Shown here: in pieces, positions 3,886 through 28,397 of the stretch
Layout of the letters: each line of letters starts with the position of its first letter
Numbering within the stretch: the first letter of the stretch is position 1
From: a virus
Length of the DNA: 64,000 nucleotides
Virus record (IMG/VR): IMGVR_UViG_3300045974_000429
Span: 1 to 64,000 of that record
Reading direction: 5' to 3' (one strand)
Position numbers and translations under genes: made by a program
Notes under the pieces: generated by a model
The model's input: the letters and a program-made list of their open reading frames with translations, nothing else
The model's database searches: none
Told to the model about the DNA's origin: nothing

Positions 3886-4197
3886 TTAGGTCGGGATCCT
3901 GCGGAAGACGTAGAAGCGAGTGAGCGTCCTGGGTTGGCTGCCCGGAGGGCTTTCAGGTCTGGTGACGCGGACGCAGCGAAAGAGGCCCTTCACGGGTCGC
4001 GTGGGCTCGGAGGAATCTATCTCCCGGAGGAACCTGCGGCGCCAGACGAAGGCTGGGACGCTCGCCGGCTCCAGGCGGCGCTCCGCGAGTCTGCCGGACT
4101 CCGTCCGCCACCTGATGCGGTTCGCCAGCGTCAATGCCGCCTTCACGGCGTTCACGGCTTCCCGAAGGGTTGGCTTCCAGGTTTCTTGCCTGGGCAC
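3886..4197 (-). CDS. small basic paralogue, array member 6
   Basis: 103 aa. Last of six tandem genes that share a plan: an N-terminal LRxxVxAVKA segment (here TLREAVNAVKAALTLA), a central FLR motif (RRRFLREID) and a basic aromatic end (LTRFYVFRRIPT). About one residue in five is Arg or Lys. GTG start after GGAGG. No known domain recognised; strong positive charge suggests nucleic-acid or host-protein binding. Confidence 0.75.
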   Translation of the reverse strand: MPRQETWKPTLREAVNAVKAALTLANRIRWRTESGRLAERRLEPASVPAFVWRRRFLREIDSSEPTRPVKGLFRCVRVTRPESPPGSQPRTLTRFYVFRRIPT

Positions 4198-4198
4198 G

Positions 4199-4504
4199 CT
4201 AGTCCCTCCTGAATCGGTAGACCGTCAGGCGGTGCCGGAACAGCTTGTCTTTGGCCCTGTCGCCGCTCCACTTGCGCCGGTGGGTGGCGCCGCCCTTGAA
4301 GATGCCCTTGAGCAGCCCCAAAAGCGATCCCGTCTTCGGATCTCGTCGGAGGAACATGGGCCGGAGGCGCCAGGGGCGCCGCAAATCGGTGGAGCAGTAG
4401 GTGCGCCACAACCTCCCATCCACCCCGAGGGTGGCGGGTGCGCTCGCGGTCATCATGTTCATCAAAGCCTTCACGGCGTTCACGTCTTCCCTCAAACTCG
4501 ACAC
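4199..4504 (-). CDS. small basic paralogue, array member 5
   Basis: 101 aa. Begins VSSLREDVNAVKALMNMMTA, has RPMFLRRDPKTG in the centre and ends LTVYRFRRD, the clearest match to the array consensus. The GTG at 4504 is preceded by AAGGAGG at 5 nt and overlaps the end of the upstream member by 13 nt. The central segment (GGATHRRKWSGDRAKDKLFR) is very basic. Function unknown. Confidence 0.78.
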   Translation of the reverse strand: MSSLREDVNAVKALMNMMTASAPATLGVDGRLWRTYCSTDLRRPWRLRPMFLRRDPKTGSLLGLLKGIFKGGATHRRKWSGDRAKDKLFRHRLTVYRFRRD

Positions 4505-4794
4505 GAGAGCCTCCTTCGCAGGATGTTCCGGCTGCTGGCGCGGCAGAAGCGTCCCGGGAAGGGGAGGCTCTCGCCCCAATCTCCCCAGGCGCGGACGTAG
4601 GATTCGGGCTCCTCGAATCGGAGGAGCCACTCCCAGGTGTCGCGCTTATGCTTGCGGGGGCGGAAATTCGCCGGCGCGTTGGACAGGAAGGCGCGCATCC
4701 CGAGGGCGTGAGCCAGCTCCGGGCCGGATGGATTTCCCAGGAGCTTCACGAGAGCCTTGGCGGCGTCCACGTCTCGGCGGAGGGAGCGCCTCAC
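4492..4794 (-). CDS. small basic paralogue, array member 4
   Basis: 100 aa. Starts VRRSLRRDVDAAKALVKLLG, contains GMRAFLSNAPANFRPR in place of the usual FLR motif and ends in a run of Arg and Cys (RASSRNILRRRLSCRV). The GTG start overlaps the previous stop (GTGA). It is more divergent in its C-terminal half than members 1, 2 and 5. Function unknown. Confidence 0.75.
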   Translation of the reverse strand: MRRSLRRDVDAAKALVKLLGNPSGPELAHALGMRAFLSNAPANFRPRKHKRDTWEWLLRFEEPESYVRAWGDWGESLPFPGRFCRASSRNILRRRLSCRV

Positions 4795-5201
4795 GGGGTC
4801 TCCTTCAGGCCGGGCAGCAGCCGGTAGGCTTGCCGGATCCGCTTCCTGGGCTTCCTGACCGGGTCGTCCAAATCGAAGACGCGCGTGAGGCAGCAGAGGT
4901 GCTCCGCGCACCGGGTCGGCAGATGGTGGCGCCCGAGAGACGGGTTCTTGGAGTCCCAGGCGCGGGTGTGCCTCCTCCGGCAACGCTCCGGGACTTGGTG
5001 AAAGAACTCGTCCAGGATAACCTCCACGTCGAAACGCTCGGGTCCGGCCTTCCTGACGCACTGCGGCGCGAGGCGCTCCCTGAAATGCTCCTCCGGCGTG
5101 CGCAGCCCGACGAAATTGTCGTTGGGGTATCTGGAATATAGCCTGACGCCGCGCAGCTTGGCCGTTGCCTTGATGGCGTCTATGAGCTGGCGGAGTTTCA
5201 C
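4791..5201 (-). CDS. small basic paralogue, array member 3 (longest, Cys/His-rich)
   Basis: 136 aa. The start KLRQLIDAIKATAKLRGVRL keeps the N-terminal pattern of the array. It then differs: a middle with FDVEVILDEFFHQVPERC and several Cys/His (RRRHTRAW, GRHHLPTRCAEHLCC) that could bind zinc, and a basic end (VRKPRKRIRQAYRLL). Coupled by GTGA to members 2 and 4. It may be an older or extended member. Function unknown. Confidence 0.72.
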   Translation of the reverse strand: MKLRQLIDAIKATAKLRGVRLYSRYPNDNFVGLRTPEEHFRERLAPQCVRKAGPERFDVEVILDEFFHQVPERCRRRHTRAWDSKNPSLGRHHLPTRCAEHLCCLTRVFDLDDPVRKPRKRIRQAYRLLPGLKETP

Positions 5202-5521
5202 CTCACCCTCCTGAACCTGTAGACGACGTCTCGGAGCCCGCGGTGGGAGATGCCGGCGTTCCTGAACAGCCCACTGCGGACTCCCTGCGCGGCGACGGAG
5301 CGCAAAAACATGGGGCCGAGCCTGCAGCTTATCTCCCCAGGAAGGCGCCTGACCGAAACGAGCCTGCGCCCCTCCACCTTCACGAGCCCGGAGACGACCA
5401 GGGCGGTGAATACCGCATCCACGTCCCGGCGGAGAGAGGGCCTATCGCTTTTGATTGCAGAAACCTGATGCCGCTCGGGATTTTCTGGAGGCGCCCCTGT
5501 CGGTTTTGATTTCCGGCTCAC
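5198..5521 (-). CDS. small basic paralogue, array member 2, carrying two iterons
   Basis: 107 aa. The family part begins at about residue 28 (SLRRDVDAVFTALVV), has GPMFLRSVAA and ends VVYRFRRVR. Unlike its neighbours it has about 27 extra N-terminal residues, and that extension is where two copies of the 19-bp origin-type repeat lie (5439-5456, 5494-5511). The extension may therefore exist only because the DNA sites are there. GTG start overlaps the previous stop. Confidence 0.75.
   Translation of the reverse strand: MSRKSKPTGAPPENPERHQVSAIKSDRPSLRRDVDAVFTALVVSGLVKVEGRRLVSVRRLPGEISCRLGPMFLRSVAAQGVRSGLFRNAGISHRGLRDVVYRFRRVR
5439..5511 (-). repeat. pair of iteron-like repeats, 55 bp apart
   Basis: Minus-strand copies AATCAAAAGCGATAGGCCC (ends at 5456) and AATCAAAACCGACAGGGGC (ends at 5511) match the four repeats inside the initiator gene at 25971-26189. 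The first is read here in a different frame (AIKSDRP) from those in the initiator (SKAIGP), so the DNA rather than the protein is conserved. Confidence 0.72.
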
Positions 5522-5769
5522 TTGGTCCTCCAGATCAATTTCGGGCCGCGCCGGTAGGTTTCCACGTACCCCTGCCTAGAGAAGAATTGCCGCGTGAACC
5601 GGCAATTATCGTGCGCCCTGAGAAATCCGGGCCGGAGGCGGAGACCGATCTTGGCGCCGTTGAAATTGTGCTTCTGCGTCGCCCGGTAGAAGGCGATGCT
5701 CTCCTGGATGGGCAGGAGAGCGATGGCGGCCTTGATGGCGTCCACCGTCTCCCGCAGGCTGCGCCTCAC
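5518..5769 (-). CDS. small basic paralogue, array member 1
   Basis: 83 aa, the shortest member. Begins VRRSLRETVDAIKAAIALLP, has RPGFLRAHDNCRFTRQFFSR centrally and ends YRRGPKLIWRTK. GTG start overlaps the upstream stop. First of the six in transcription order. Function unknown; like the others it is strongly basic. Confidence 0.76.
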   Translation of the reverse strand: MRRSLRETVDAIKAAIALLPIQESIAFYRATQKHNFNGAKIGLRLRPGFLRAHDNCRFTRQFFSRQGYVETYRRGPKLIWRTK

Positions 5770-6113
5770 GGCCAGCCTCCCGAGCGCTTCGAGGCCGTCT
5801 CCCGGTCCGGGATGAGGGCGGCGCGCAAGACCTCCACCTGATCGCCTCCCAGGCGCGCGACCGCCGAGGCCGCGAGCAGCACCTCGTCAGGGAGCAGCGG
5901 TTCGCCGCATCGGTAGCACTCCGGCCCGGCCGAGATGAAGACGTCCAAGGCGGCGTAGGTGCCGCACTCGCAGACGAGGATGATGGGAGACACGAGTCCG
6001 ACGCCCGGAGCCGCGCGACCCTGCGGGCGCTGCCAGGAGCGACGTGGGCCGCCCCCCTTCGCGGCGGCGGGCTTCCCGTCGAGCGTCCTGATGTAGAAGA
6101 ACTTGGCGGCCAC
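5766..6113 (-). CDS. zinc-ribbon protein, unknown function
   Basis: 115 aa. A four-Cys cluster (CECGTYAALD, then PECYRCGEPLL, about 55-78) fits a zinc ribbon. The N-terminus is basic with KFFYIRTLDGKPAAAKGGGP. The GTG at 6113 stands 6 nt after GCAAAGAT of element copy B. It follows queE and precedes the paralogue array with a GTGA overlap. It might bind DNA or serve the modification pathway; not recognised further. Confidence 0.68.
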   Translation of the reverse strand: MAAKFFYIRTLDGKPAAAKGGGPRRSWQRPQGRAAPGVGLVSPIILVCECGTYAALDVFISAGPECYRCGEPLLPDEVLLAASAVARLGGDQVEVLRAALIPDRETASKRSGGWP

Positions 6114-6119
6114 GATCCA

Positions 6120-6144
6120 ATCTTTGCGCGGCCGCGCGGGAATT
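6120..6144 (-). promoter_or_regulatory. bipartite element, copy B (degenerate)
   Basis: AATTCCC, 7 nt, CGCGCAAAGAT, with the first half overlapping the queE stop TAA. One mismatch in the 11-mer relative to the other copies. Ends 6 nt before the GTG of the zinc-ribbon gene. Confidence 0.5.
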
Positions 6145-6844
6145 ACTCCAGGCCCCAGAGCTTGTGGAGCTGCGCTCCCAGGCGCCACCTGGGGTGCGCC
6201 TGCACGAACTCCAGGCAACGGGCGAGCGCGGCCGAGTAGGCGGGCAGGGACGCCTCGCCTGGGGCACGGAGGTGGGTCGCCTCAAGCACCTGCGAGGTGA
6301 GCGGGTCGCGGGGCTGAACGAAGTAGTGCGCGGCCGGGAGGGCCACCTCCAGGGCCAGGAGCGCCTCGTCCGCCCAGTCATCCGCGCCGACGACCACCTT
6401 GACCTCCTCGCAAGCGCGAACCACCAAGGGAGGCGCTGCGAGCTTCGGGCTGACGGTCAGGTGATCGACGTAGGCCGGGAGCGGGCGGGTGCCGTTCGTC
6501 TCGACGGCGATCCGCCACCCGTTCCCGTGGAGCGCCTCGACGAGCTGCGCATCCACCTGGAGCAGCGGCTCGCCTCCCGTCAGGACGCACCAGCGGTCTT
6601 CTCCCGAAGCCTCCGGCCAGCGAACCTCCAACTTCGCCAGAATGTCCGCCACGGAGAGCTTGTCGCCGCCCAGAAAATCCGTGTCGCACCAGTGAGCGCA
6701 GGCCCCGGAGCCCTTTTCGCGGTCTTCGGGGCGCCCGCTCCAGAGGTTGCATCCAGAAAATCTGAGGAACACCGATTTCGCTCCCGCGCGAGAACCCTCG
6801 CCCTGGAGCGTGCAGAACACCGACTTGACGAGGTAGGTTTTCAC
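6143..6844 (-). CDS. queE: 7-carboxy-7-deazaguanine synthase (radical SAM)
   Basis: 233 aa. Converts 6-carboxytetrahydropterin to 7-carboxy-7-deazaguanine, the step after QueD. TLQGEGSRAGAKSVFLRFSG at the N-terminus is typical. The radical-SAM cysteines are spaced as in the QueE subfamily with an insert: CNLWSG, then GACAHWCDTDFLGG. VLTGGEPLLQ and VETNGT are the glycine-rich and substrate loops. The GTG start overlaps the queD stop, so the two are coupled. Part of a folE-queC-dpdA-queD-queE block for DNA base modification. Confidence 0.93.
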   Translation of the reverse strand: MKTYLVKSVFCTLQGEGSRAGAKSVFLRFSGCNLWSGRPEDREKGSGACAHWCDTDFLGGDKLSVADILAKLEVRWPEASGEDRWCVLTGGEPLLQVDAQLVEALHGNGWRIAVETNGTRPLPAYVDHLTVSPKLAAPPLVVRACEEVKVVVGADDWADEALLALEVALPAAHYFVQPRDPLTSQVLEATHLRAPGEASLPAYSAALARCLEFVQAHPRWRLGAQLHKLWGLE

Positions 6845-7206
6845 GGCCGGTACTCGCAGCGGCTCGTGCAAGTTTCCTCGATGGCGACCGAGGCGAGGCA
6901 GGGGAGCGCGGGCGCGAGCTGATCGAAGATCCAGCGCGCAAGTTCCTCACTCGTGGGGTTCTCCAAGCCGGTCGTCTCGTTGAGGTGCCAGTGGTCGAGC
7001 TTGGCGTCCACGAGGGGCTGGAGAGCGGCCTTCATCTCGCCGTAGTCCAGGAGCATCCCTGCGCGAGGACCGGAGGTGGCGAGGCCCGAGCCTTCAACCG
7101 CGACCTCCCCCACCCAGGAGTGCCCGTGGAGCCTCGCGCACTTGCCGCCCTGGTGCGGGAGCCTGTGAGACGCTTCGAACCGGAACTTCTTCGTGAGCTT
7201 GAACAT
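6841..7206 (-). CDS. queD: 6-carboxy-tetrahydropterin synthase
   Basis: 121 aa, normal length. Makes 6-carboxytetrahydropterin from dihydroneopterin triphosphate, the FolE product. Zinc and catalytic residues visible: ASHRLP (His), CARLHGHSW (Cys and two His), LDHWHLNE and PTSEELARW near the C-terminus, then the Glu in AIEETCTSRCEY. ATG overlaps the preceding stop (ATGA) and its own stop overlaps the queE start. Confidence 0.93.
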   Translation of the reverse strand: MFKLTKKFRFEASHRLPHQGGKCARLHGHSWVGEVAVEGSGLATSGPRAGMLLDYGEMKAALQPLVDAKLDHWHLNETTGLENPTSEELARWIFDQLAPALPCLASVAIEETCTSRCEYRP

Positions 7207-7937
7207 CACGCCTCCTGGACCTTGGGAGACTTCTTGGAGCCCTTCTTCTTGGGGGGCTCCTGGGGCAGCGGAACCAGCTTGGAGACAGCCGCAGCCTCGC
7301 AGAGCGCGACGAAGGCGCCGGCCGCGTTGCCTGGGCCGGTCATGCCGAACACCGCCAGGACGGCCTTGCAGGCGTCGGCCTGCGGGTCCGTCTCGACCTT
7401 GAAGACGAAGCGGCGCTCCTGGGCGGCGAGCCCCTCCGCCACGGCCGCCTCGTCGTTCTCGGTGGGAAGCGCGGCGGTGGCAGCGACCTCGGCCATCATG
7501 GAGGTGATGTCCTCGACCTCCGGCATCGTGAAGCCGGACAGCTCGATGTCGAGATCGGGAACCTGGGACAACCCGGAGAGCAGCTCGCCGAGCTTGTCGT
7601 AGTCCCACTCGCCGGAGATTTTATTGAGAGCGAGGTTCAGGAGGCGCGCTCGCTCGTCCGAGATGCCCGAGAGGAGCACGACCGGCACCTCGTAGGAGGT
7701 GATCTCCTTCGGAGACTTGCCTCCCTCCGCGAGCAACTCCCGGAGGGCCGCGAGGCGCTGGTGGCCGCCGATGAGGAGGCCGTCGTCCTCGCGCGCGACC
7801 GCGGGCTGAACGAACCCGAACTCCTTCAGGCTGTTCTTGAGCTTCTCCATCTCGTCGCCGCTGATCTGGCGCGGGTTGAGCGGGTCCGCTTGAAGGAACC
7901 CGAGGGGGCGGCTCTGCGGCTGCGGGAGATGAATCAC
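7206..7937 (-). CDS. ParB/sulfiredoxin-fold protein within the deazaguanine cluster
   Basis: 243 aa. The N-terminal domain has ParB-nuclease-like features: PLNPRQISGDEMEKLKNSLK, then FGFVQPAV, LLIGGHQRLAAL (the GxxR-type loop) and a helix with ARLLNLALNKISGEW. The C-terminal third is variable and ends in a Lys-rich tail (PPKKKGSKKSPK). The domain is known in chromosome partition proteins and many phage enzymes acting on DNA or nucleotides. Its place between dpdA and queD, coupled at both ends, suggests a role with DNA modification. A second ParB-like protein is at 28764-29393. Confidence 0.8.
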   Translation of the reverse strand: MIHLPQPQSRPLGFLQADPLNPRQISGDEMEKLKNSLKEFGFVQPAVAREDDGLLIGGHQRLAALRELLAEGGKSPKEITSYEVPVVLLSGISDERARLLNLALNKISGEWDYDKLGELLSGLSQVPDLDIELSGFTMPEVEDITSMMAEVAATAALPTENDEAAVAEGLAAQERRFVFKVETDPQADACKAVLAVFGMTGPGNAAGAFVALCEAAAVSKLVPLPQEPPKKKGSKKSPKVQEA

Positions 7938-9082
7938 GGCGACTCCTTCTTCTTGAGCGAGCGAGAGATCGAGGGCAACGAGTTCGGCGCGTCGCCGCTG
8001 ATGGTGGCGAGGTAGACGCTCATCCCGTTGGAGACGCAGGTCGCCGTGCCGTCGCCGTGCCCACCCATCGGCAGCGCGCCGCACGACAGGTAGAGGTTGT
8101 TCTTGGCGCGCCGCTTGTTCAGCCACTCCTCGGCGCGCTGCCACGCCTCCACGCTGGCGCCGCAGATCAGGTCGCGGTCGTAGCTGCCGGCGTGGCACTG
8201 CGACGGCCGGAGGCGATATTCGGAGAGAAGCGGCGCGGCCTTGAGGAGCGCGCGGTGATCCCGCATGTCGAGCTTCTCCCAGGCGCTCCGCTGGGAGTTG
8301 AACAGGGGCAAGCTGGCGTAGCGAAACGGCGCGGTCCAGGAGGACGAGTCCACGCTGTACCAGGGGAAGTTCTTGAGTGTGTTCCAAGAGGTCATCCCGA
8401 AACCGTGAACCCGCACATCGGGTGGCAATTGGGCGAATGACTGCCGCAGCCACGCAGCCACGAAATCGGGCCGGGCGGAATGCGGCACCATCCCGCCGAA
8501 GGCTAGGTAGTCGGTTCGTCCGAACCAATGCTGTAGATATTTCGGATCTTCCCCCAGATGAAAAACCGGCAATATCTGAACGCAGGACACCCGGCGGAGC
8601 AATTCCTCCGTGGCCCACTGCGTGGCCGCGGGGTCTCCAATTACGTCGAACCCGGCCGCGCAGGTGAAGAGATGCCCCCACCGATTCAACCACTCGGCGT
8701 AACCATCCAACCCAACCGGAGTTCCCGTGGTGAAAGCCGAGAATGCCCCAGAGTCGGCGAAGAGGTCCACCTTCCGATCCGGGAAACAGGCCGAGAGCAG
8801 CGCCTGAATATCCTCATCTCGGTAGTAGAAATAGGAAAGGAGCAGGCGAAGCGGGCGCCGAGGAGGGGCGCGCCCAATATTCGGCACGTCGCGCTGAATA
8901 GCTGGACCCGTAGGCATTCCGAAGTAGATCCGCCCTCCAGAGGCCAACGCCTGCTCACATTGGGTGGGCGGCGCAAGCGCCTCCATGGAACCGCCGCCAC
9001 GCCCCAAATAACCCGGCGTATCGCTCATGGCGCGCATATCAGCCCCCCCCCGTCCCTGCGCGTCACCGAGATAGATTTGCAC
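7934..9082 (-). CDS. dpdA: DpdA-like DNA guanine transglycosylase
   Basis: 382 aa. Related to tRNA-guanine transglycosylase; phage relatives exchange guanine in DNA for a 7-deazaguanine. Recognisable segments in order: LLLSYFYYRDED, DLFADSGAFSAFT (about 110-122), FDVIGDP, LPVFHLGED, YLAFGGMVP, then VHGFGMTSWNTL and YSVDSSSW. The order DSGAF, then GGMV, then SVDS follows DpdA proteins. GTG at 9082 has AGGAG at 6 nt, but a G9 run 30 nt inside the gene and an ATGA-coupled ATG at 9165 in another frame leave the true N-terminus open. Downstream gene coupled by GTGA. Confidence 0.85.
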   Translation of the reverse strand: MQIYLGDAQGRGGADMRAMSDTPGYLGRGGGSMEALAPPTQCEQALASGGRIYFGMPTGPAIQRDVPNIGRAPPRRPLRLLLSYFYYRDEDIQALLSACFPDRKVDLFADSGAFSAFTTGTPVGLDGYAEWLNRWGHLFTCAAGFDVIGDPAATQWATEELLRRVSCVQILPVFHLGEDPKYLQHWFGRTDYLAFGGMVPHSARPDFVAAWLRQSFAQLPPDVRVHGFGMTSWNTLKNFPWYSVDSSSWTAPFRYASLPLFNSQRSAWEKLDMRDHRALLKAAPLLSEYRLRPSQCHAGSYDRDLICGASVEAWQRAEEWLNKRRAKNNLYLSCGALPMGGHGDGTATCVSNGMSVYLATISGDAPNSLPSISRSLKKKESP

Positions 9083-15955: not shown

Positions 15956-16158
15956 TAGATCCCCTCCTTCTCAGCCCACCACCCGTTCACGACCAACGTG
16001 CCCGCGTCGCCCGGCTTCCAGATTTCGCTGTCGTCGTGGATCTGGCTCTTCGGGATCCAAACCTCCCGCCCATCATCCAGGCAGACTAGCAGCGCCTTCG
16101 CCGTCTCCCGAATCACTCGACAACCCGCCCGCTCCTCCGGTTCCTGTCCCACGCGCAT
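15955..16158 (-). CDS. small phage protein, unknown function
   Basis: 67 aa. IRETAKALLVCLDDGREVWI, then PKSQIHDDSEIWKPGD and VVNGWWAEKEGI gives a compact beta fold. Similar short proteins occur beside phage recombination genes, but I know of no function. Coupled by ATGA to recA and by its stop to sbcD. Confidence 0.72.
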   Translation of the reverse strand: MRVGQEPEERAGCRVIRETAKALLVCLDDGREVWIPKSQIHDDSEIWKPGDAGTLVVNGWWAEKEGI

Positions 16159-17171
16159 CAGGCTTCCTCCTTCTGAGCCGACACGACGTCGGCCTCCGCG
16201 GCTTCAACCGGCGCCGGGGCGGCGCCCCAGCCCAAATCCTTGCGCGCAGCCTCGTAGTTCGCGAGCGTGGGCCTGGAGGACTCCGGCAGGCAGCCCATTT
16301 CCTTCGCGTGCTCGCAGAGGCTCCACAGCTCGTCCCAGCCGCGGTCGAAGGTAAAGCGCACCTTCGCCTCCCGGTGGGGGACGGCGTGGCGGTTCTTGAT
16401 GGTCCTGAAGCTGGGAACCTGCCCGACCACGGCATCCTTCACCTTCAACTTCTCGCCGGGGTAGAGGCGCACCCGCAGGGAGCAGTGGAACTTGGGTGCG
16501 TCGCCGCCCGGCGTGTAGGTCGGGTCGCCGAAGGACACGCCCACCTTCTTGCGGATCTGGTTCGTGAACATGACGTGGGCGCGGGCGCGGAGCGCCACGG
16601 TCGTCAGGCCGCGGACGAGCTTCGCGACCTGCCCGGCCTTCTTGCCCATCGCGTCGCCGGAGGTGTCGCCCTCGACCTCCGCGTTGGTGGCGGAGCCGCC
16701 GATGGAGTCGTAGACGATCAGCGCTGGAACCGAGCCGTCGAGCGCGCCGGCCGCCGCGAGCATCGCCGGGACGTACTCCTCCAGCGTGTCGCACTGCACG
16801 AGCATCACCCGCGCCGGGTCCACGCCGAAGGTCTTCGCGCGCTCCTCGTTGAAGGAGTGCTCCGCGTCGCCGTAGATGCCGATGCCGCCCATGCGCTGAA
16901 CGCTGGCGATGGCCAGGAGGGAGAGGCTGGTCTTGCCCGCGCTCTCGGGGCCGGACCACTCGGAGGAGCGGCCGATGGGCAGACCGCCGGTGCCGATGAT
17001 CCAGCGGTCGAGAACGGAGATGCCTGTCGGGATGACCTCGCCGGCGCCGTCCCGCACGCCGCCTTCCGAGAGGCGGACGGCAAAATCGGTGCGCTTGAGC
17101 TTGGAGCGGACCGCCTCCAGCGCCGCATCGAGCGCGCGAGCGGCGGCCTTCGATGGATCTGGCTTGACCAC
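16158..17171 (-). CDS. recA: RecA/UvsX-type recombinase
   Basis: 337 aa. Walker A GPESAGKT (74-81), catalytic Glu region GDAEHSFNEE (101-110), Walker B PALIVYDS (149-156), and a motif-3-like TNQIRKKVGVSFGDP with a Thr-Pro-Gly-Gly-Asp DNA-loop element. Strand exchange in recombination and repair. GTG at 17171 was chosen for its AGGAAGAAGG site; upstream frame (to 17393) overlaps the ssDNA-binding gene. The last 26 codons include the 11-mer CGCGCAAGGAT, here without the left half of the element. Confidence 0.93.
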   Translation of the reverse strand: MVKPDPSKAAARALDAALEAVRSKLKRTDFAVRLSEGGVRDGAGEVIPTGISVLDRWIIGTGGLPIGRSSEWSGPESAGKTSLSLLAIASVQRMGGIGIYGDAEHSFNEERAKTFGVDPARVMLVQCDTLEEYVPAMLAAAGALDGSVPALIVYDSIGGSATNAEVEGDTSGDAMGKKAGQVAKLVRGLTTVALRARAHVMFTNQIRKKVGVSFGDPTYTPGGDAPKFHCSLRVRLYPGEKLKVKDAVVGQVPSFRTIKNRHAVPHREAKVRFTFDRGWDELWSLCEHAKEMGCLPESSRPTLANYEAARKDLGWGAAPAPVEAAEADVVSAQKEEA

Positions 17172-17248
17172 GAGAACCTTCTTCCTGTTGAGGATGCTCG
17201 CGGCGGCCTGGCCGACCCGCCGCAAGCGTTGAGCCCTGTCGTAAGGTG

Positions 17249-17263
17249 CCCGGCGCGACCGGG
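17249..17263 (-). other. short GC hairpin between ssb and recA
   Basis: CCCGG-TCGCG-CCGGG in the 136-nt gap ahead of recA (17172-17307). No T-run follows, so it is a weak terminator at best. The rest of the gap shows no clear promoter. Confidence 0.35.
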
Positions 17264-17307
17264 GGGAGTAGCCGCGCCGCCTGACCTGCCGGGAGAGCGA
17301 GAGAAGC

Positions 17308-18084
17308 CTACTCCTCGGCGTCCTCGTCCGCCAAGTCCTGGGCGGTCCGCCTGGGCTGCGCGAGGGGGGCCGACGGCTTGGGCTTGGAGGCAAGCTGGCG
17401 CGAGGGCGGGGTCACGTCCCGCGCCTCGTCGGGATCCTCGCCGAGCAGCTCCAGGATCTCGGCGGTGGACCGCGGCATCGCGTACTGCGCGAGGTTCGCC
17501 TGGGCCTCGATCCACTCCAGCTCGCCGAGCGGGGAGGACTGCCGCGCCGGCGCCACGAAATACTCCGTGTCCATGCCCGAGCCCTTCCGGGTCAGGATCA
17601 CGTCGAACCCGTTGATCGGATCCGTGAAGTCGCCGCCCGCGTCCTCGTCGGTGCGGAGCTGGAGGAGCTGCGTCCAGACGCTCTTCCCGAAGGCGATCTT
17701 CTGCGGCCCCAGGTCCGGTGCGTTGCGGTTGATCACGTTCGCGAACACCCGCAACTTGGCTGCCATGTCACTGGCCGCCTTGCGGTCGGCTCCGACGCCC
17801 GTCGCCCGGAGCTGCTCGACCCGGTCGCAGGCCGGGCACTGCATCTTGGCGTGAGCCCGCGGGCAGGCGAACCCGCCCGACTTCCCCTCCGGGCTCTTGA
17901 TGAAGTGCTGCTGCACCTTCACGAACGGGTGCGCCTGCCCCTCCTTGGGCGGGAGGAAGCGCAGCACGTTGCGCCCCTCCTCGATCTTCATGAACTCCCC
18001 ACCCGACGCCTTCGCCGCCTCTTCGACGTCGCTGGCGGCCGCCTCCGGCGTCCACGTCCCGTACTTGATCATGCTCTGTCCCAT
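17308..18084 (-). CDS. gp32-like single-stranded DNA-binding protein
   Basis: 258 aa. The N-terminal part has the gp32-family opening GGEFMKIEEGRNVLRFLPP and VQQHFIKS. A four-residue metal site is visible: CPRAHAKMQCPACD (Cys, His, Cys, Cys). The C-terminus is acidic (DLADEDAEE), as in other ssDNA-binding proteins where it recruits partners. Upstream of recA, downstream of polymerase, forming a T4-like recombination-replication set. ATG with GGAGAGAG ahead. Confidence 0.87.
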   Translation of the reverse strand: MGQSMIKYGTWTPEAAASDVEEAAKASGGEFMKIEEGRNVLRFLPPKEGQAHPFVKVQQHFIKSPEGKSGGFACPRAHAKMQCPACDRVEQLRATGVGADRKAASDMAAKLRVFANVINRNAPDLGPQKIAFGKSVWTQLLQLRTDEDAGGDFTDPINGFDVILTRKGSGMDTEYFVAPARQSSPLGELEWIEAQANLAQYAMPRSTAEILELLGEDPDEARDVTPPSRQLASKPKPSAPLAQPRRTAQDLADEDAEE

Positions 18085-18170
18085 CGCTCTCTCCTCTAGC
18101 CTCTGGCCGTCTCGGGCCTGTGGCGCCCCTGAGTTTCCCGCGCAGCCGGGGCGAGCCGCGCGAGGTGCTT

Positions 18171-18695
18171 CTAGGCGTTGCGCGCCAGCGCGGAGCGCAG
18201 GAGCGGGTCCGACATCTCGCTACGCAACTTGGCGCCGATGCTCTGGAGCATGTCCTTCTTGGCTTCCAGCGCGGAGACGACGCCGCGGAGCCGGGTGCGC
18301 TCCACCTCGGCCTCCAGCTCCGCGAGCCGCACCTCGTGGTAGCGCGGATCGGACACCATCCGCGCCCGGACGATCTCGCCAGCCGGCTCCCTGCCCGCCG
18401 ACTCGCCCTTGTCCTTCGCGCCGGCGGAGGCCAGCTTCGCGGCGCGCCACTCGGTCAAGGCCGTCTCGCGGACCTCCAGGAGCAACACCGCCTCCGCGCG
18501 CTCCGCGTCGAGCTTCGCGAGGAGGTGCGCCTTGTGCGCCCGCGCGTACCGCTCGTTCCAGTAGGCGAGATCCGCAGCGATGCGGATGAACTCCTCGTCG
18601 AGCGCCTCCGGTTCCACGTTGACGCTGTCGTAGAGGTAGGCATCGACTTCGACCTCTCCGCCCTTCGGCCCCAAGCTTCTGGTTGCTGTTCCCAT
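18171..18695 (-). CDS. helical phage protein next to ssb (recombination mediator?)
   Basis: 174 aa, mostly charged helix (DLAYWNERYARAHKAHLLAK, then ARMVSDPRYHEVRLAELEAE). Proteins with this profile often lie beside ssDNA-binding and RecA genes in phages and may load the recombinase as UvsY does; that role is a guess from position. ATG lies 6 nt after AAGGAT of element copy D. Confidence 0.65.
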   Translation of the reverse strand: MGTATRSLGPKGGEVEVDAYLYDSVNVEPEALDEEFIRIAADLAYWNERYARAHKAHLLAKLDAERAEAVLLLEVRETALTEWRAAKLASAGAKDKGESAGREPAGEIVRARMVSDPRYHEVRLAELEAEVERTRLRGVVSALEAKKDMLQSIGAKLRSEMSDPLLRSALARNA

Positions 18696-18701
18696 GACCC
18701 A

Positions 18702-18726
18702 ATCCTTGCGCGGTCCGCGCGAAATC
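18702..18726 (-). promoter_or_regulatory. bipartite element, copy D
   Basis: GATTTCG, 7 nt, CGCGCAAGGAT. Its first bases are the TGA stop of the DNA polymerase gene; its end is 6 nt from the next ATG. Confidence 0.62.
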
Positions 18727-21409
18727 ACTGCGTCGCTCGCTTGTGCGCCGACGCCGCGAGCCACTTGTCCAGAGGAATCATGCTCGCCCAGGTGAGCCCG
18801 GCCTTCACGTCCGCGTCGAGCGGCACCTCACCGGAGTCCCAGGAGAGCATCACCGCCTTCACCGTAGCAGCCACCTCCGACACGTCCGCGATCTTGCACT
18901 CCAAGAGCAGCGAGTCGTGGACCGGAAGGATGAGCTTCGCCGGCAGGCCCTCCTCCTCGATCAACCGAACGACCTCGCCGAGCGAGCGCAGGAGGAAGTC
19001 CGACCCGGTGCCCTGGATCGGCGTGTTGTAGCTGCTCCGCTCCGGCGTGCCGCGGCGCGCCTCGTCGGGGCTCCCGATGTCCCAGAGCGGGCGGCGGCGG
19101 CCGGGCCGCCCCTCCCACCACGTCTCGGCGTAGCCGTGCGTGCGCGCAAAGGCGAGCCGCTGCTTGATCCAGGCCCCGAGCACCCGGTAGCGCCCGAGGA
19201 TGGCGTCGAGCGCCGCCTGGGCCACCTGGACGCTCGTGCCGAGCGTGACGGCCATCGCCTTCGCCCCCTTGCCGTAGAGGGCGGCGAGGCCGACCGGCTT
19301 CGCCTCGTCGCGCTGGGCCTTCGTGATCTCGGCCTTCCCGTCGGGGCGGATTGGCGCCTTCGGCCACAGGTAGGGCTGGACGATCTGCGCCGTCTCACCG
19401 TGGAAATCGCGGCCCTCCACGAACACCTGTGTCAGCGCCGGATCGCCGGAGAGCAGCGCCGCGATGCAGGGCTCCAGGCGGGAATAGTCCAGCTCCAGGA
19501 GCGCGCATCCCGCCGGGGCCGCGATGCAGCGCCGGATCATCTCGCCGTCCTCCGACTTGGCGCCGGGCACGTTCTGGAGGTTCGGAGAAGCCATCGAGGT
19601 TCGGCCGGATCCGGCGCCGTCCAACAGGATGTAGCCGTGGGCGCGCCCGTCGATCCCGATGGCGCGCTCCAAGCCCTCGACGTAGGTGCCGAGCATCTTC
19701 TCGATGCGCCTGCGCTCCAGGAGGTCTTTGATCGCCGGGTGCCTGTCGCTGATCCGCGCCAGCGTCTCCTCGTCGGTCGCCGGCCGCCCGGAGTCCGTGA
19801 GCTGCGGGCAGGGGATCTTGAGCTTCTCGTAGAAGAGGGCGGCGACCTGGATCGTGGAAGACCAGTTGAAGCCGGGCTCGACGTAGGCCGCGAGCCGCGC
19901 GTCCACCTCCGCCAGCTTGCCGGTCAGGTGCGCGCGCACGAGATCCACGGCCGAGCGGTCGATGGGGACGCCCCACGCCTCCACGCGCTGCACCGCCGGG
20001 AGCGCGTGCCGCACGACCCTGTCCCAGATGCGCGCCGGGCCGGCGTTCTCCTCTCGGGCGAGCCGCTCCGAGCACCAACAGTAGAGCCGCGCCGTGGCGA
20101 GGGCGTCGCGAGCGTTGTACCGGGCGCCAAGCTCCCGCGGGAGGAGCCCGAGGGCGTAGGCGCGGACCTCCGTGCCGGACTGTGCCGCGAGCGTGAAGGC
20201 CAAGACCTCGACCCGCTCCGGGACGTGCGGGAACAGCCTGGGCAGGCAATAGTCCGAGATGTGTTGGTTGAGGAGCGTGCCCACGGCGTACATCTTGGCG
20301 CGAGCGCGGAGTTCCTTCTTGACCGCCTTCCCGATCCGCTCGACCTCCGCGTCGGCCTCCTCCTTGTGGCCCCCCATCCCGACGAGTTCGGCCATCGTGG
20401 CGATGTCGCCGTCCGCGTCGGCCTCCAAGAGCTTGCGCTGGAGGCGGACGTCCGCGTGCTGGCCGCGAACCGGGACGCCCAGGCCGCGCTCCACGGCGTG
20501 AACGTCCACAGGCAGGTTCGCGCCGACCTTGAGCACCCGACCGGATCGCATCAGGCGCTTGAGCGGCTCCGCTCTGCCATCTTGGAGGGACTCCAAAGGC
20601 CAGACCCAGACGTGCTCCGGCCCGTCGCGGTCGCAGGGGGCGCAGGCAATGTTCGTGAGGTGGAACCCCTCGCGGCCGTAGGGGCGCCCGATCCACTCGC
20701 AGTCGTAGGCGAAAATGCTCGCGTCTGCGAGGTCGAGGGCGGCCTCCTGCGCGTCGGCCTCCGTCTCCACGAGAGAGAAGGTCGCGGCCTCCGGCCCGGC
20801 AGGCACCTTGACGGAGAGCGCCCAGGCCAAGTCCTCCTGGAGCGCGAGCTGGAGGTGGCGGTTGCCGGCCGCTTGTGCCGGCGAGAGCACAACGAATACT
20901 GGGATGCCCTTCGCGGTACGCGCGAAGCTCTTGCGCGCCGAGAGCGGGGAAACCCTGCGCCCGAGAACCGCCTCCGCTGCCGCGGCACCCAGGCAGACGA
21001 TCCTGTCCGGCAGCTCGTCGTCCACGACCCAGGCGAGGTAGCCGCGGCAGGCGTCCAGGTGCTTCTCGGACACCTCCGCGGAGCCCGGAGCGCAGCGCAC
21101 GGCGGAGGTGATCACCGAGCGCCCGGCGCCAAGCGGCAGCACCCGCTTGAGCAGGTCGAACGCGGCGCCGTGCCCGAGTGCCCCGACGCGATCCTCCTCC
21201 CGACTCGGGCGCTCTGCGACGAACAGCGCGCCGCCGGTTCCGGGAGCCGTCTCGATGGGCGGCAGGCAGCAGCTCCTCGCGCCCTCCCGCAGCGAGCACC
21301 GGAAACACCCCTCGTCTCGCGGGAGGCGCGGCGCAACGTCGATGGCGGCGGCCGAGCCCCCTTCCGCGAGGGGCTTTCCGGCGAGGTAGAGCGGGAGGCG
21401 CGAGGTCAT
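18725..21409 (-). CDS. fusion of uracil-DNA-glycosylase-like domain and family A DNA polymerase
   Basis: 894 aa. Residues about 35-205 resemble family 4 uracil-DNA glycosylases: Cys pair CFRCSLREGARSCC, FVAERPSREEDRVG (cf. GExPGxxED) and CLGAAAAEAVLG. The late His-Pro catalytic motif is not evident (LSPAQ), so activity is doubtful. A 3'-5' exonuclease domain starts about 230 (FAYDCEW; D, E). Polymerase motifs: A DYSRLEP (D641), B KPVGLAALYGK (about 703), C PVHDSLLLE (about 830) with Ser in place of the usual Glu after HD. Replicates the phage genome. The preceding gene ends just upstream. Confidence 0.9.
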   Translation of the reverse strand: MTSRLPLYLAGKPLAEGGSAAAIDVAPRLPRDEGCFRCSLREGARSCCLPPIETAPGTGGALFVAERPSREEDRVGALGHGAAFDLLKRVLPLGAGRSVITSAVRCAPGSAEVSEKHLDACRGYLAWVVDDELPDRIVCLGAAAAEAVLGRRVSPLSARKSFARTAKGIPVFVVLSPAQAAGNRHLQLALQEDLAWALSVKVPAGPEAATFSLVETEADAQEAALDLADASIFAYDCEWIGRPYGREGFHLTNIACAPCDRDGPEHVWVWPLESLQDGRAEPLKRLMRSGRVLKVGANLPVDVHAVERGLGVPVRGQHADVRLQRKLLEADADGDIATMAELVGMGGHKEEADAEVERIGKAVKKELRARAKMYAVGTLLNQHISDYCLPRLFPHVPERVEVLAFTLAAQSGTEVRAYALGLLPRELGARYNARDALATARLYCWCSERLAREENAGPARIWDRVVRHALPAVQRVEAWGVPIDRSAVDLVRAHLTGKLAEVDARLAAYVEPGFNWSSTIQVAALFYEKLKIPCPQLTDSGRPATDEETLARISDRHPAIKDLLERRRIEKMLGTYVEGLERAIGIDGRAHGYILLDGAGSGRTSMASPNLQNVPGAKSEDGEMIRRCIAAPAGCALLELDYSRLEPCIAALLSGDPALTQVFVEGRDFHGETAQIVQPYLWPKAPIRPDGKAEITKAQRDEAKPVGLAALYGKGAKAMAVTLGTSVQVAQAALDAILGRYRVLGAWIKQRLAFARTHGYAETWWEGRPGRRRPLWDIGSPDEARRGTPERSSYNTPIQGTGSDFLLRSLGEVVRLIEEEGLPAKLILPVHDSLLLECKIADVSEVAATVKAVMLSWDSGEVPLDADVKAGLTWASMIPLDKWLAASAHKRATQ

Positions 21410-21412
21410 CGG

Positions 21413-22189
21413 CTAGGCTCCCACGACCTTGGAGTCGGCCTCGGAGCCCAGGATCTCCAGCATCCGTGTGACGCGGTCCTCCATGCGCGGGATCTTGGCG
21501 AGCTTCGGAACGTCCGCCCGGAGCGCCTCGCAGACGGCGGTGAGCATCCGCGGCGCCTTCACGCCCTGGTCCTGGAGGAACACGATGATCTCCTTGATCG
21601 TCGCCTCGACGAGCTTCGCCGCCGGGATCAGCTCCTTCACCGCCTGGACGCAGGCCGCGACGTCCACGTCCGCCGGCTCACCCTCCCTCGCGAGCCGCTC
21701 ACCCTCGGTCGGCTCCGCGGCGGCGGCCATCTGCGGGGCGGGGGCGGCCTGCTGCGCGACGACGGGCTCCGGGTGGGCCTCCGGGGCGGGCGCCGCCGGA
21801 ACCTCCGCAGACGCGACCAAGGGCGGCTCCTTGGGCTTGTTCTTGGATCCGGGCGGGCGGCCGGGTCCGCGCTTCACCGGCTGCTCCTGGGCGGGCGCGG
21901 GGGCGGCCGCCTCCGGCTGGGGCGCCGCGATGGCGGGCTCCGGGTGGGCCTCGGGAACCTTGGGCACCGACACCTTCACCTCGACGCCGCTCATCATCGC
22001 GGCGCGAGCGCCCTCCACCGTCCGCAGGATGAACTCCGCCTCCACGTGGTTCTGGACGAAGAACGTCAGCGTGACCGGGAACTCGTCATCGTCATCGTTG
22101 CCCAGCACCTCCGCGCGCCGGCACTGCACGTCGGCGCCCAACTTCTCCCAATCGATCTCGAACTCTGCTTCCAGCACCCGCATTTTCAT
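21413..22189 (-). CDS. AT-hook-containing protein
   Basis: 258 aa. N-terminal folded part (about 1-75), then a Pro/Ala-rich linker with two imperfect repeats around HPEPAIAAPQPEA and HPEPVVAQQAAPA, separated by an AT-hook KRGPGRPPGSKNK (about 121-133), which binds the minor groove of AT-rich DNA. The C-terminal 90 residues are helical (VAACVQAVKELIPAAKLVEA). Located between primase and polymerase. In a GC-rich genome, AT tracts are rare, so the hook may aim it at promoters or the origin. Confidence 0.75.
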   Translation of the reverse strand: MKMRVLEAEFEIDWEKLGADVQCRRAEVLGNDDDDEFPVTLTFFVQNHVEAEFILRTVEGARAAMMSGVEVKVSVPKVPEAHPEPAIAAPQPEAAAPAPAQEQPVKRGPGRPPGSKNKPKEPPLVASAEVPAAPAPEAHPEPVVAQQAAPAPQMAAAAEPTEGERLAREGEPADVDVAACVQAVKELIPAAKLVEATIKEIIVFLQDQGVKAPRMLTAVCEALRADVPKLAKIPRMEDRVTRMLEILGSEADSKVVGA

Positions 22190-22217
22190 CTACGCTCCTG
22201 GTTGATTGCCTGAAATG

Positions 22218-22242
22218 ATCCTTGCGCGGTCAGTCGGAAATT
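22218..22242 (-). promoter_or_regulatory. bipartite element, copy E
   Basis: AATTTCC, 7 nt, CGCGCAAGGAT. The left half codes for the last residues of the primase. It stands 28 nt from the next ATG, which has its own CAGGAG site, so here the AAGGA cannot be the ribosome-binding site. Confidence 0.6.
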
Positions 22243-23084
22243 ACCCGCCGCGCCTCCTCGAAAAGCCAATTTCGATCCACTTGGTCGGGGTCTTTCTTCG
22301 GCGGCAGCCTCACGGAGCCGGCCCGGATCCCGTCGAGCCGCAACTTCATCGCCAGCGCCCACCCCTCCTCGTGCGCATCGCCGTCCAGAACCACGGCCAC
22401 GGGTCGGCGGGCGGTCGTCTTGATGATCCAGAGCTGCTCCTCGGTTGGCTTCCCGAGCACCGCCACGGCGTCGCCGACGAACGGGAGCGCATCGAACACC
22501 CCCTCGGTGATCATGACCGGGGTTTCCGTCTCCCGGCGCAGGGCATCCGCACCGAAGAGAACGTCGCCGCGCCAGTTGCCTCGCGCGTTCAGGTATTTTT
22601 TCTCGGCCTTGCCGGTGAAGTCGCGCGCGACCCAACCGCGCCAGTTGCCGTCCACCAGCACGGGAACGACCACTCGGCCGGCGTGGCGCCCGCTGCCGAG
22701 TACGCACCCGATCTGGAGCTTCCTGGCCGTCTCCGGGCTCACGCCGCGCTTCTGGAGGTACGCTCTCGCCGGCTTGGCCGAGAACGCTCGCAGCCCGTCA
22801 CCTTCACCCAGCGGCAGGAAACCATCCGGCGGCCGGCGCGCCTCCGAGTCGTCGGGGGGCGGAGTCTTGACGGCCTCCTGGAGCGCGTCGTCGTCAGCCT
22901 CCAGGCTCCCGCCGGTGTGACACCTGAAACAGTGCCAGTGGCCGGTGCTCGGCTGAATCGAGAACGTCGGATCTGGGCGAGCGGGAACGCAGAACGGGCA
23001 GGCGCCGCGCCACCACCCGGAGGCCCGAGGCTTAGCCTCCCTGGCCGCCGCGCGGGCTAGATCCAGCTTCTCCTCCAACCTCAC
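22230..23084 (-). CDS. DnaG-type primase (zinc and Toprim domains)
   Basis: 284 aa, short for a primase. Zinc domain CPFCVPARPD, then HWHCFRCHTGG (about 29-57). Toprim: VMITEGVFDAL (catalytic Glu, about 193) and VVLDGDAHEEG (DxD-type Asp pair, about 234). Makes RNA primers for lagging-strand synthesis with the DnaB-like helicase two genes upstream. GTG start overlaps the previous stop. Confidence 0.9.
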   Translation of the reverse strand: MRLEEKLDLARAAAREAKPRASGWWRGACPFCVPARPDPTFSIQPSTGHWHCFRCHTGGSLEADDDALQEAVKTPPPDDSEARRPPDGFLPLGEGDGLRAFSAKPARAYLQKRGVSPETARKLQIGCVLGSGRHAGRVVVPVLVDGNWRGWVARDFTGKAEKKYLNARGNWRGDVLFGADALRRETETPVMITEGVFDALPFVGDAVAVLGKPTEEQLWIIKTTARRPVAVVLDGDAHEEGWALAMKLRLDGIRAGSVRLPPKKDPDQVDRNWLFEEARRVISD

Positions 23085-23671
23085 CGATGCAGCTCCGGCC
23101 AGAGCTGCGCGAACGCTCGCGCGAACTCCGCCCGAGCCTGCTTCCAGGGTAGCGGCCGCACGTCGAACCGCACCGGGTCCAAGACCGCACCGAGCACGTG
23201 CCACGGCGCCGGCCGAGTCACCTCCGGGAAAAATTGCGCCGCCTCGGAGACGAGCAGGTCCAGGTCGGCCTGCTTCACGTCCGGCGGCTCCTCGCCGACG
23301 AGTCCGAACCTCTCCGCCACGGCCCGCATGATTTTTTCCTCGCAGCGCCGGAACTCGACCATCTCGGGCTGGCTCTTGAGCGGCTTCGGCATGTCGCCGA
23401 TGTACGCCTCCGCCGCATCGTGGAGCAGGCCCCAGCGGGCGACGTTGATCCGCTCCGCTTCGAGCATCCCGGCGGAGAGGCTATACGCCCGTCTGGAGAC
23501 GAGCACGCTGTGCTGTGCGACCGAGTAGGGCTCGGGGGCGTGGCCGTTGTAGCGGTTCACGCAGGCGAGCGCGTGGGCGATGTCGGGGAGCTTGATGTCT
23601 TCCGGCCGCGGGTCGAGCGGCCAGAACATGAAGCCGCGGTAGGTCTGGGTCCAGCTTCCTTTTCGCGTCAC
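23081..23671 (-). CDS. HD-domain phosphohydrolase
   Basis: 196 aa. His/Asp metal ligands: YSVAQHSVLV (about 52), LLHDAAEAYIGDMPKPL (HD pair, about 84, and the later Asp) and a Glu/Asp-rich helix after. Resembles YfbR-type 5'-nucleotidases or dNTPases; substrate not determined. Sits between helicase and primase, coupled to both, so nucleotide-pool control is likely. Confidence 0.83.
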   Translation of the reverse strand: MTRKGSWTQTYRGFMFWPLDPRPEDIKLPDIAHALACVNRYNGHAPEPYSVAQHSVLVSRRAYSLSAGMLEAERINVARWGLLHDAAEAYIGDMPKPLKSQPEMVEFRRCEEKIMRAVAERFGLVGEEPPDVKQADLDLLVSEAAQFFPEVTRPAPWHVLGAVLDPVRFDVRPLPWKQARAEFARAFAQLWPELHR

Positions 23672-25053: not shown

Positions 25054-26697
25054 TCACCTCCCAGCGGCACGATGTGCCGAGTCCCAGACGAATACGCCCT
25101 CTTCGACCTGCCGGCGAAGGGCCTGCTCGGATCCTTGCGCGGCCGCACCGATTTTCTTTCGCGCCGCCTCCAGGCTCGCGCACCCGTTGCGGAACTCCGC
25201 CGCGACCGCGGCGCGCTGCGCATCCAGGTCGCCCTCGGCGCAGGCGGACACCCCGGACGCCATCCGCCGCCAGCGGGCGTAGAGGGCCTTCGCCTCCTCC
25301 GTGCTCGGCAGCGGGGTGCCCCCCTCGCAGCGGTCGCGGTGCTCCAGCATCTCGTCGAGCCCGCGGCCCTCCATCCAGCGAACCATGAAAACGTTCTCCA
25401 GGCGCGGCGCGGTATTCGGGCCATTCTTTTCGCGGTGCTCGTTGAACCGCCAGTTGACCCAGGAAATTGGAGCCACCTCGCGATCTCGCAGGAGCTTGCC
25501 AGCCTGGAGCAGGACTGTCCTGGAGCTGGGGCGGAGCTTCAACCAGCATTTCCCGAGCCGATGCTGGTGGACGCACTGGTAGGCGGCGAAGAGTTTTTTG
25601 ACGACCTGCTCGTCGGAATCCGTCGCCAGGAGCCTCGGAGCCGGCGGGAGTTTGGCTCGCGCCGGGAATGGAAACTCCGGCGGCATGCTGAGACGAGCCA
25701 GCCGGGTGGGCAGCGGGGTGACGGGAATAACTGGCCGGGTGGGGGTCGGGCCGGAGATGCTCGGCGTGCTTTTAGCCCTAGCGACGGGCGCCGGATTTTT
25801 CGGCGCCTGGGATCTGAGCGTAGCGAAGATCTCTAGCTTCTTTTCTTTACTCGGGTCGCGGTTTTGATTCTCGATCAAGCTGGGCGCGGGTTTGCGCGCC
25901 CCCCCTTCCGGCGCGGATTCGGGGGGGATCGCCGGCACCGGAGCTTCCGGCCTTGTCGTCTTTGATTCCGGCCCTATCGCTTTTGATTGCAGATCCTCGG
26001 AAGCACGCAGCTTCCCGGGAAATGCCCCTATCGCTTTTGATTCTCGCGGGGGCGGCGCGGCCGAGCCGCGAGAAATATTCCAAGAATTGTTTTCCGCCTC
26101 TCGAACCTTTGATTCAGGCCCTATCGCTTTTGATTGCACCTCGCTGGAAGCAGGCGCTTTTTCTGAGTCGGGGCCTGTCGCTTTTGATTTCCTGCCAGCA
26201 CCCTTCCTGGCGCCGCCGGAGAAGCCGACCCCGGCGAGCAGCGCGGCTTGAGCTTTCGGGGGGAGGCGGACCCGGTCGTAGGGGAGCCGCTCGCCCATGG
26301 CCTCGACGCGGCGAACCCACATCATGCGGTGGCCGTCCGGGTGGTTCCGATCTGGCATGTCGAGGTAGGCGAGCCCGCGACCGGACGGCGCGTCGAGGTC
26401 CTGCGGCAGCTTGAAGTCCTTCGGGGGCGGCCAGAGATCCTTGTCCTTTGGAAGCTGTGGGCGGTACTCCAGCCAGCCGAGGCGGTAGAGCCGGGCATAG
26501 GCGCGGTGGACGGACGTCACGCTCATCCCGAGGATGCGCGCCACGGCCTCGTGGGTCTGCGTGCTGTAGGGCATGGAGAAGGTCTTGCGCCGCTGGAGGT
26601 GATCCCACACCCTCCAGGCCATCCTCTGCCACTTCTTGACGCCTGCTTCGGACAACTCCGAGCCGGCTTCCACTAGATACGGTGCTGGTGCGCCCAC
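25054..26697 (-). CDS. replication initiator with winged-helix domain and embedded iterons
   Basis: 547 aa. Residues about 15-85 form a winged-helix DNA-binding domain: KKWQRMAWRVWDHLQ, HEAVARILGMSVTSVHRAYA and RLGWLEYRPQL. Residues about 165-245 are a low-complexity Pro/Ser/Lys linker containing SKAIGPESK-type repeats, which are the translation of DNA repeats at 25971-26189. The C-terminal 220 residues (LFAAYQCVHQHRLG onwards) look folded and may recruit the helicase encoded next. The layout matches lambda O, with origin repeats inside the initiator gene. GTG at 26697 was chosen since AAGGAGG stands 6 nt upstream, in the arm of a stem. Confidence 0.75.
   Translation of the reverse strand: MGAPAPYLVEAGSELSEAGVKKWQRMAWRVWDHLQRRKTFSMPYSTQTHEAVARILGMSVTSVHRAYARLYRLGWLEYRPQLPKDKDLWPPPKDFKLPQDLDAPSGRGLAYLDMPDRNHPDGHRMMWVRRVEAMGERLPYDRVRLPPKAQAALLAGVGFSGGARKGAGRKSKATGPDSEKAPASSEVQSKAIGPESKVREAENNSWNISRGSAAPPPRESKAIGAFPGKLRASEDLQSKAIGPESKTTRPEAPVPAIPPESAPEGGARKPAPSLIENQNRDPSKEKKLEIFATLRSQAPKNPAPVARAKSTPSISGPTPTRPVIPVTPLPTRLARLSMPPEFPFPARAKLPPAPRLLATDSDEQVVKKLFAAYQCVHQHRLGKCWLKLRPSSRTVLLQAGKLLRDREVAPISWVNWRFNEHREKNGPNTAPRLENVFMVRWMEGRGLDEMLEHRDRCEGGTPLPSTEEAKALYARWRRMASGVSACAEGDLDAQRAAVAAEFRNGCASLEAARKKIGAAAQGSEQALRRQVEEGVFVWDSAHRAAGR
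25131..25155 (-). promoter_or_regulatory. bipartite element, copy F (inside the initiator gene)
   Basis: AAAATCG, 7 nt, CGCGCAAGGAT: both halves identical to copy A though fully inside coding DNA, 84 nt ahead of the dnaB-like start. It fits an element that acts on dnaB transcription or on an RNA-level event. Confidence 0.55.
25860..26189 (-). repeat. iterons: probable replication origin
   Basis: Four 19-bp copies on the minus strand, consensus AATCAAAAGCGATAGGGCC, with cores at 25971-25988, 26025-26042, 26118-26135 and 26172-26189. Starts are 54, 93 and 54 bp apart. Copies 1 and 3 carry an extra half-site GAATCAAAG exactly 11 bp away (25960, 26107). A partial copy (AATCAAAAC) lies at 25860-25868. 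The longer gap includes an AT-rich stretch (AAATATTCC, AATTGTTTTC), a possible unwinding site. All lie within the initiator gene. Confidence 0.72.
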
Positions 26698-28395: not shown

Positions 28396-28397
28396 CG

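Follow-up and report, generated by a model that had tools for sequence, protein, structure and literature searches.

Two copies of an AT-rich iteron that lie inside a small protein-coding gene at 5.4 kb of a phage genome probably serve the phage's own initiator of replication as an accessory, distal binding site, a reading to which we assign a probability of about 0.6. As judged from the sequence, this pair and the iterons within the initiator gene have in common the same AT-rich 16-bp element, its orientation and a near-identical spacing, with one of the 5.4-kb copies lying in another reading frame. The window referred to throughout is the whole stretch of DNA that was analysed (64,000 nt), running from base 1 to base 64000 of a phage record of 83,744 bp; positions are those of the window unless the record is named.

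Iterons at two distant loci

The features on which the argument rests are as follows.

5198..5521, minus strand: small gene of the paralogue array, 107 aa, its GTG start overlapping the upstream TGA
5441..5456, minus strand: iteron C2 (AATCAAAAGCGATAGG), read AIKSDR, a frame used by none of the four initiator copies
5496..5511, minus strand: iteron C1 (AATCAAAACCGACAGG), read KSKPTG, 55 bp from C2
23668..25047, minus strand: DnaB-like replicative helicase gene (phrog_19, E 5.8e-36)
25054..26697, minus strand: replication initiator gene, 547 aa, for which we infer both the GTG start and the name "initiator"
25854..25869, minus strand: weak iteron-like site, 4 mismatches in 16 (none in the first 11 bases), third reading frame
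25952..25967, minus strand: weak iteron-like site with 3 mismatches, B2 being 21 bp away
25973..25988, minus strand: putative origin iteron B2, perfect AATCAAAASCGAYAGG match
26027..26042, minus strand: putative origin iteron B1, perfect AATCAAAASCGAYAGG match
26071..26110, no strand assigned: AT-rich island with a GC of 0.375, flanked by the two iteron pairs and a candidate for the unwinding element
26120..26135, minus strand: putative origin iteron A2, perfect AATCAAAASCGAYAGG match
26174..26189, minus strand: putative origin iteron A1, perfect AATCAAAASCGAYAGG match

The 16-mer AATCAAAASCGAYAGG contains two ambiguous letters, set so as to include all of these copies. It is matched perfectly six times in the complete record, always on the minus strand and only at the two loci. 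With up to three mismatches to CCTATCGCTTTTGATT allowed, the 64-kb window holds seven matches against 0.06 expected from shuffling: those at 5441, 25973, 26027 and 26120 carry no mismatch, that at 26174 carries one and that at 5496 two, while the seventh, at 53534 (three mismatches), was taken as unrelated. The first-pass annotation had reported two further repeat copies 55 bp apart in a small-protein gene, which we confirm at 5441 and 5496, and had placed them 20 kb from the initiator-gene copies; the loci are 20.5 kb apart. The start-to-start spacing is 55 at the 5.4-kb pair and 54, 93 and 54 across the initiator-gene copies, so that the latter make up two units 147 bp apart, each unit being a pair 54 bp apart.

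Exact direct repeats of at least 16 bases are not rare in this GC-rich record (62 pairs, most of the others GC-rich); it is the AT-rich core that carries the argument from rarity. Of the ten occurrences of the short core AATCAAA, nine are at the two loci, all nine on one strand. Around the iterons, 21 bases at 5441 are identical to those at 25973, and the inter-iteron spacers have diverged while keeping a weak likeness (2000 base shuffles: p 0.0045 for A-B, 0.0025 for B-C and 0.057 for A-C), to which the three iteron-flanking bases included in each compared spacer (TGC in all three) contribute.

This residual likeness of the spacers to the origin units is what a passive copy would leave behind, that is, a stretch of the origin recombined into a fast-changing small gene, where it would have no role of its own even if the initiator may still bind it. 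We consider this unlikely, though worth keeping in view. Both 5.4-kb iterons match the consensus at 16/16 positions while the spacer has diverged, a state that needs either selection or an unlikely pattern of mutation; the identity of the 21 bases at 5441 and 25973 and the retention of the spacing (55 versus 54) likewise count against it.

Reading frames and codon usage

The four initiator copies read KSKATG, QSKAIG, ESKAIG and QSKAIG in one common frame. The first-pass annotation had held that the frames differ between the two loci, which is true of the 5441 copy (AIKSDR), whereas the 5496 copy (KSKPTG) is in the initiator frame. With a spacing of 55 in place of 54, one added base shifts the 5441 copy out of the initiator frame; if the weak site at 25854 is included, three frames are used to read the core. 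An assembly error behind this spacing was considered and rejected, because one base fewer would be expected to shift the paralogue domain out of frame with the start.

For each site, 200,000 random codon choices were drawn with the codon usage of 21 long ORFs. Five sites gave the observed 16-mer 1-2 times each, and 5441 gave it 14 times (7e-5); when the draws followed the paralogue genes instead, its frequency was 7e-4 for 5441 and ranged from 0 to 5.5e-5 elsewhere. The iterons use the rare codons TCA, AAA and ATA, and none of the 19 Ser-Lys dipeptides in 21 other long ORFs is encoded TCA-AAA. Taken together, the codon test, this 0/19 count and the other frame at 5441 indicate constraint on, or copying of, DNA rather than constraint on a peptide.

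Peptide conservation is an unlikely cause of the repeats. The proposal that they encode a useful basic peptide (RKSK) common to both proteins can point to the 5496 copy, which in the initiator frame reads KSKPTG next to the KSKATG of the initiator, yet the 5441 copy in its other frame, the rare codons and the outcome of the codon test all oppose it, and we give it hardly any credence. That the repeats are instead a protein-binding DNA site, as the first-pass annotation had argued, appears well supported by the copy in the other frame, by the rare codons and by the recurrence of the core in the initiator gene of a distant relative; the role of a second origin, which the same annotation had offered for the pair, did not fare as well (see below).

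The small gene carrying the distal pair

The gene at 5198-5521 belongs to an array of small proteins that occupies 3886-5769 of the window and 30-862 of L007, the nearest relative (terminase 81% identical), with six tandem genes in the former and two in the latter, upstream of the terminase genes. Its members are very divergent (21-38% to the first member) and have the N-terminal motif SLRxxVxAxKA in common; five of the six window members were scanned, none of which matched Pfam above the curated cut-off or any PHROG convincingly, and the predicted structure of the small protein is poor (pLDDT 60). Ahead of the common SLR motif, the gene at 5198-5521 encodes a 28-residue N-terminal extension, and it is this extension that carries the iteron pair. 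Each of the seven family members aligned with it has at most about ten residues before SLR and no long extension, an absence that would suit a passive copy. Both family genes of L007 lack the extension, and L007 has no iteron match with two mismatches allowed, in a contig that begins just before the family genes and stops short of the homologous position.

The 71-bp span of the 5.4-kb pair has a mean GC of 0.52, which is AT-rich for this genome and no higher than the 0.55 of the span of the initiator-gene iterons. A search of 4700-6300 for a sigma-70-like promoter found none, and a search for an AT-rich element at 5.4 kb found a lowest 40-base GC of 0.475 in the pair and of 0.45 within 5300-5640.

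The initiator gene and a candidate origin

The initiator gene harbours a five-copy repeat family, while 20 codon shuffles of it reached three copies at most. Within the 217-bp span of its iterons (mean GC 0.55), the AT-rich island at 26071-26110 stands out, since only 0.09% of the record's 40-base windows have a GC as low or lower. Iteron pairs flanking an AT island inside the initiator gene give the layout of an origin within its own initiator gene, and we infer from the sequence that these elements constitute a replication origin. The main sign changes of GC skew, near 8 and 36 kb, fall at neither iteron locus.

The identity of the initiator is suggested by its context and its predicted architecture. 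The helicase ORF starts at 25047, directly after the end of the initiator ORF (25054). Profile searches of the initiator against replication-initiator families gave no match; its N-terminus resembles helix-turn-helix domains weakly, with scores under the curated cut-offs, and when solved structures were searched by profile, the matches were weak and to helix-turn-helix regulators (best E 0.011). The predicted structure is poor overall (mean pLDDT 48), and Foldseek with this poor model gave no match at E 0.001 or better. The model has low-confidence N-terminal helices and strands, compatible with a winged helix, a stretch under pLDDT 50 (residues 72-350), within which the iterons sit at codons about 170-242, and, at about 351-450, helices of higher confidence. 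Other recognisable genes of the record encode the large terminase, a DNA polymerase, SbcCD-like proteins, a ParB-like protein and a tail sheath.

The leader of the initiator gene contains a 27-nt inverted repeat (26703-26729 and 26812-26838) whose arms are 82 nt apart and 89% complementary. One arm, by our reading, holds the ribosome-binding site of the initiator, and the inverted repeat is possibly an autoregulatory operator or an RNA structure.

Other repeated elements in the record

Several further repeats were seen. One recurring element consists of a TAATTTC-like stretch, about nine bases and then GCGCAAGGAT (one mismatch allowed); it occurs on the minus strand at 820, 6129, 14457, 18711 and 22227 of the window and at 66348 of the record, precedes possible gene starts at several of these places, and could be a phage promoter or leader. 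A 10-mer scan for GCGCAAGGAT gave 15 matches in the record, six of them with the upstream TAATTTC-like part; one plus-strand match, at 26871, lies upstream of the initiator gene. Four copies of an AT-rich 37-nt repeat (31374, 33636, 36078 and 36662) are 62-100% alike in a record of 68% GC, 22 bases being exact between two of the four. Clustered GCCGGAGAGGCGCTCTCGGA repeats at record positions 75284-76290 (in L008) are perhaps a repetitive coding region.

Relatives

No close relative was found in viral_contigs via the small protein, the initiator or the helicase, nor in genome_contigs by terminase alignment, and a search with the exact pair pattern found no relative with the pair. Among the terminase relatives, a helicase match was present in none of 11 records (L015 set aside) and an initiator match in none of the seven tried. 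The DNA polymerase search yielded 20 relatives at 32-38% identity, half of whose loci (10/20) had a helicase match, and the gene upstream of the helicase was examined in nine of those ten, the protein of L026 being that of L025.

Two near-identical contigs, L040 and L041, represent one distant lineage. Their initiator, 22% identical to that of the window, is encoded by a gene with a pair 22 bp apart (core ATTCAAAACCGA), a spacing that places the copies in two frames. The only two matches of at least 11/13 to the window core in the 19,267 and 20,758 bases scanned both fall in the initiator gene, which ties the motif to the initiator. Codon shuffles of the L040 initiator gene also yield two- and three-copy 14-mer families, so that the pair is not above chance by size, and its weight comes from its match to the window core and its location. 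A scan for core pairs returned 75 stretches, in which tblastn found replication genes only in L109 and L118, the contigs of L041 and L040, respectively.

A second lineage, L030 and L033, has a 22-bp-spaced pair (CCGAATCAACTACGT) in the initiator gene, again in two frames; the initiator genes contain five 15-base pairs each, a number reached by none of 200 codon shuffles. They have no match of at least 11/13 to the window core, and eight (L030) and seven (L033) such matches lie outside the initiator gene, at loci that are AT-richer. As for the remaining loci, L025 has 12-bp tandem repeats, the initiator genes of L031, L035 and L037 have no pair, and that of L032 has one at chance level. Six families (five initiator or O-like) were each matched by one of seven members at E 0.02-0.05, and the window protein matched none of them. 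The sequences thus suggest that the motif is linked to the initiator in one further lineage (L040/L041), with a weaker hint in a second (L030/L033).

The first-pass annotation had suggested seeking the pair in relatives, and the L040 contig (G012, 31,911 bp) allows this, because it spans initiator (ORF start at 1629) to terminase (54% identical, 25387-26760) and so covers the interval corresponding to the window pair, given the same gene order. The core pair is there in the initiator gene; a second pair is not. Searched in full with its own core (two mismatches allowed), the contig gave only the initiator-gene pair. Its part 16001-31911 has no match of at least 11/13 to the window core; nor did the plus-strand ORFs of at least 55 aa in that part yield a small-protein member when searched by profile, the family being very divergent and the search having no positive control. 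Among the sequences compared, the second locus is seen in this phage only, no relative with the N-terminal extension came to light, and the lack of such a site in the L040 contig fits a passive copy.

The protein that would bind the repeats

The confinement of the core matches in L040/L041 to the initiator gene makes the initiator the likely binder of the repeats. Another binder, either a ParB-like protein or a transcription regulator of phage or host, for which the repeats would be partition or regulatory sites, seems improbable. A ParB-like gene (7206-8693) does lie 1.7 kb from the pair, and several relatives have ParB-like matches. However, the repeat is non-palindromic and is clustered in the initiator gene as the sites of lambdoid O and SPP1 gp38 are, and L040, which also has a ParB-like match, has its core matches of at least 11/13 only in the initiator gene.

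Comparison with known systems and possible roles of the distal pair

The closest precedent, one that the first-pass annotation did not name and that by analogy would fit best, is Bacillus phage SPP1. Its gp38 (G38P) binds both oriL, made of direct repeats inside gene 38, and oriR, which lies in the late region at a distance of about 12-13 kb, in a segment that also holds three moron genes; bound at oriR, gp38 has been suggested to halt the fork and so set off the synthesis of concatemers (PMC6316719, PMC3485210). The likeness is one of layout: repeats inside the initiator gene and a distant second locus with the same repeats, a fork barrier being a conceivable extra role. The differences are also clear. 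SPP1 oriR is intergenic and has an AT-rich unwinding element, one being expected at both loci of a system of this type, whereas the present pair lies within coding sequence, has no clear element of this sort, and the only candidate is that at 26071-26110 (GC 0.375); the SPP1 operon encodes the helicase loader G39P, between initiator and helicase to go by the gene numbers (38, 39, 40), whereas here the helicase directly follows the initiator.

The ori portion of lambda O encodes a linker between the two domains of O. In a similar fashion, our iterons sit in a putative linker between an N-terminal helix-turn-helix and a helical C-terminal domain, as far as a poor model allows such a comparison, and a DnaB-like helicase gene follows the initiator where, in lambda, the P gene follows O. 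In the lambdoid ori, the middle part of the initiator gene O carries iterons and an AT-rich tract (PMC7466680); the lambda origin is described as one cluster, unlike the present arrangement with its second pair 20.5 kb away. Extra copies of the origin block lambda initiation (PMC4488673). A comparable placement, with origin-type sites far from the origin, is found on Vibrio cholerae chromosome 2, where RctB sites 40 kb from ori2, bound by the same initiator, act through titration/handcuffing (PMC6090056); those sites belong to a chromosome, the present pair to a phage.

Mechanistically, the N-terminal helix-turn-helix of the initiator would bind the origin iterons in the initiator gene. The 5.4-kb pair would have arisen when one origin unit was copied to a gene junction, the copy then diverging while its iterons were kept as a binding site; some 5.2 helical turns separate the two iterons, which lie where the coding region of an array gene starts, just upstream of the terminase genes. 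With less confidence, we propose that the initiator bound there does not fire replication and acts like SPP1 oriR, since the pair lacks a clear unwinding element. It may form a fork barrier, halting forks from the origin and aiding the switch to concatemer synthesis near the packaging genes, and/or it may partner the origin by looping and so limit firing. A replication-control element of this kind without unwinding, made of one copied origin unit at which the initiator stops or recruits forks and thereby couples the replication mode to packaging, is a tentative proposal that we regard as doubtful.

Of the roles suggested in the first-pass annotation, copy control or handcuffing and local regulation may apply, but we do not favour that of a second origin. 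A complete replication origin at 5.4 kb could draw on the same iterons, on the mean GC of the pair and on the two origins reported for SPP1, but the local GC minima there remain well above the 0.375 of the initiator locus, no AT-rich stretch like that at 26 kb is present, and there are two iterons instead of four; we rate it as quite improbable. Without a separate AT-rich element, an origin function at 5.4 kb appears less likely, and barrier, looping or titration more likely.

If the reading of the 5.4-kb pair as a distal site for the phage's own initiator is right, control of the SPP1 type, with two loci for one initiator, would also exist in another type of phage, one with a tail sheath and a genome of at least 84 kb, and its second initiator locus would be hidden inside a protein-coding gene. 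The same DNA conserved in different frames would then offer a sequence test by which sites of this kind could be sought in phages that have not been cultured. SPP1 oriR combines the origin role with the role of fork barrier proposed here, and the lack of an unwinding element would set the two apart.
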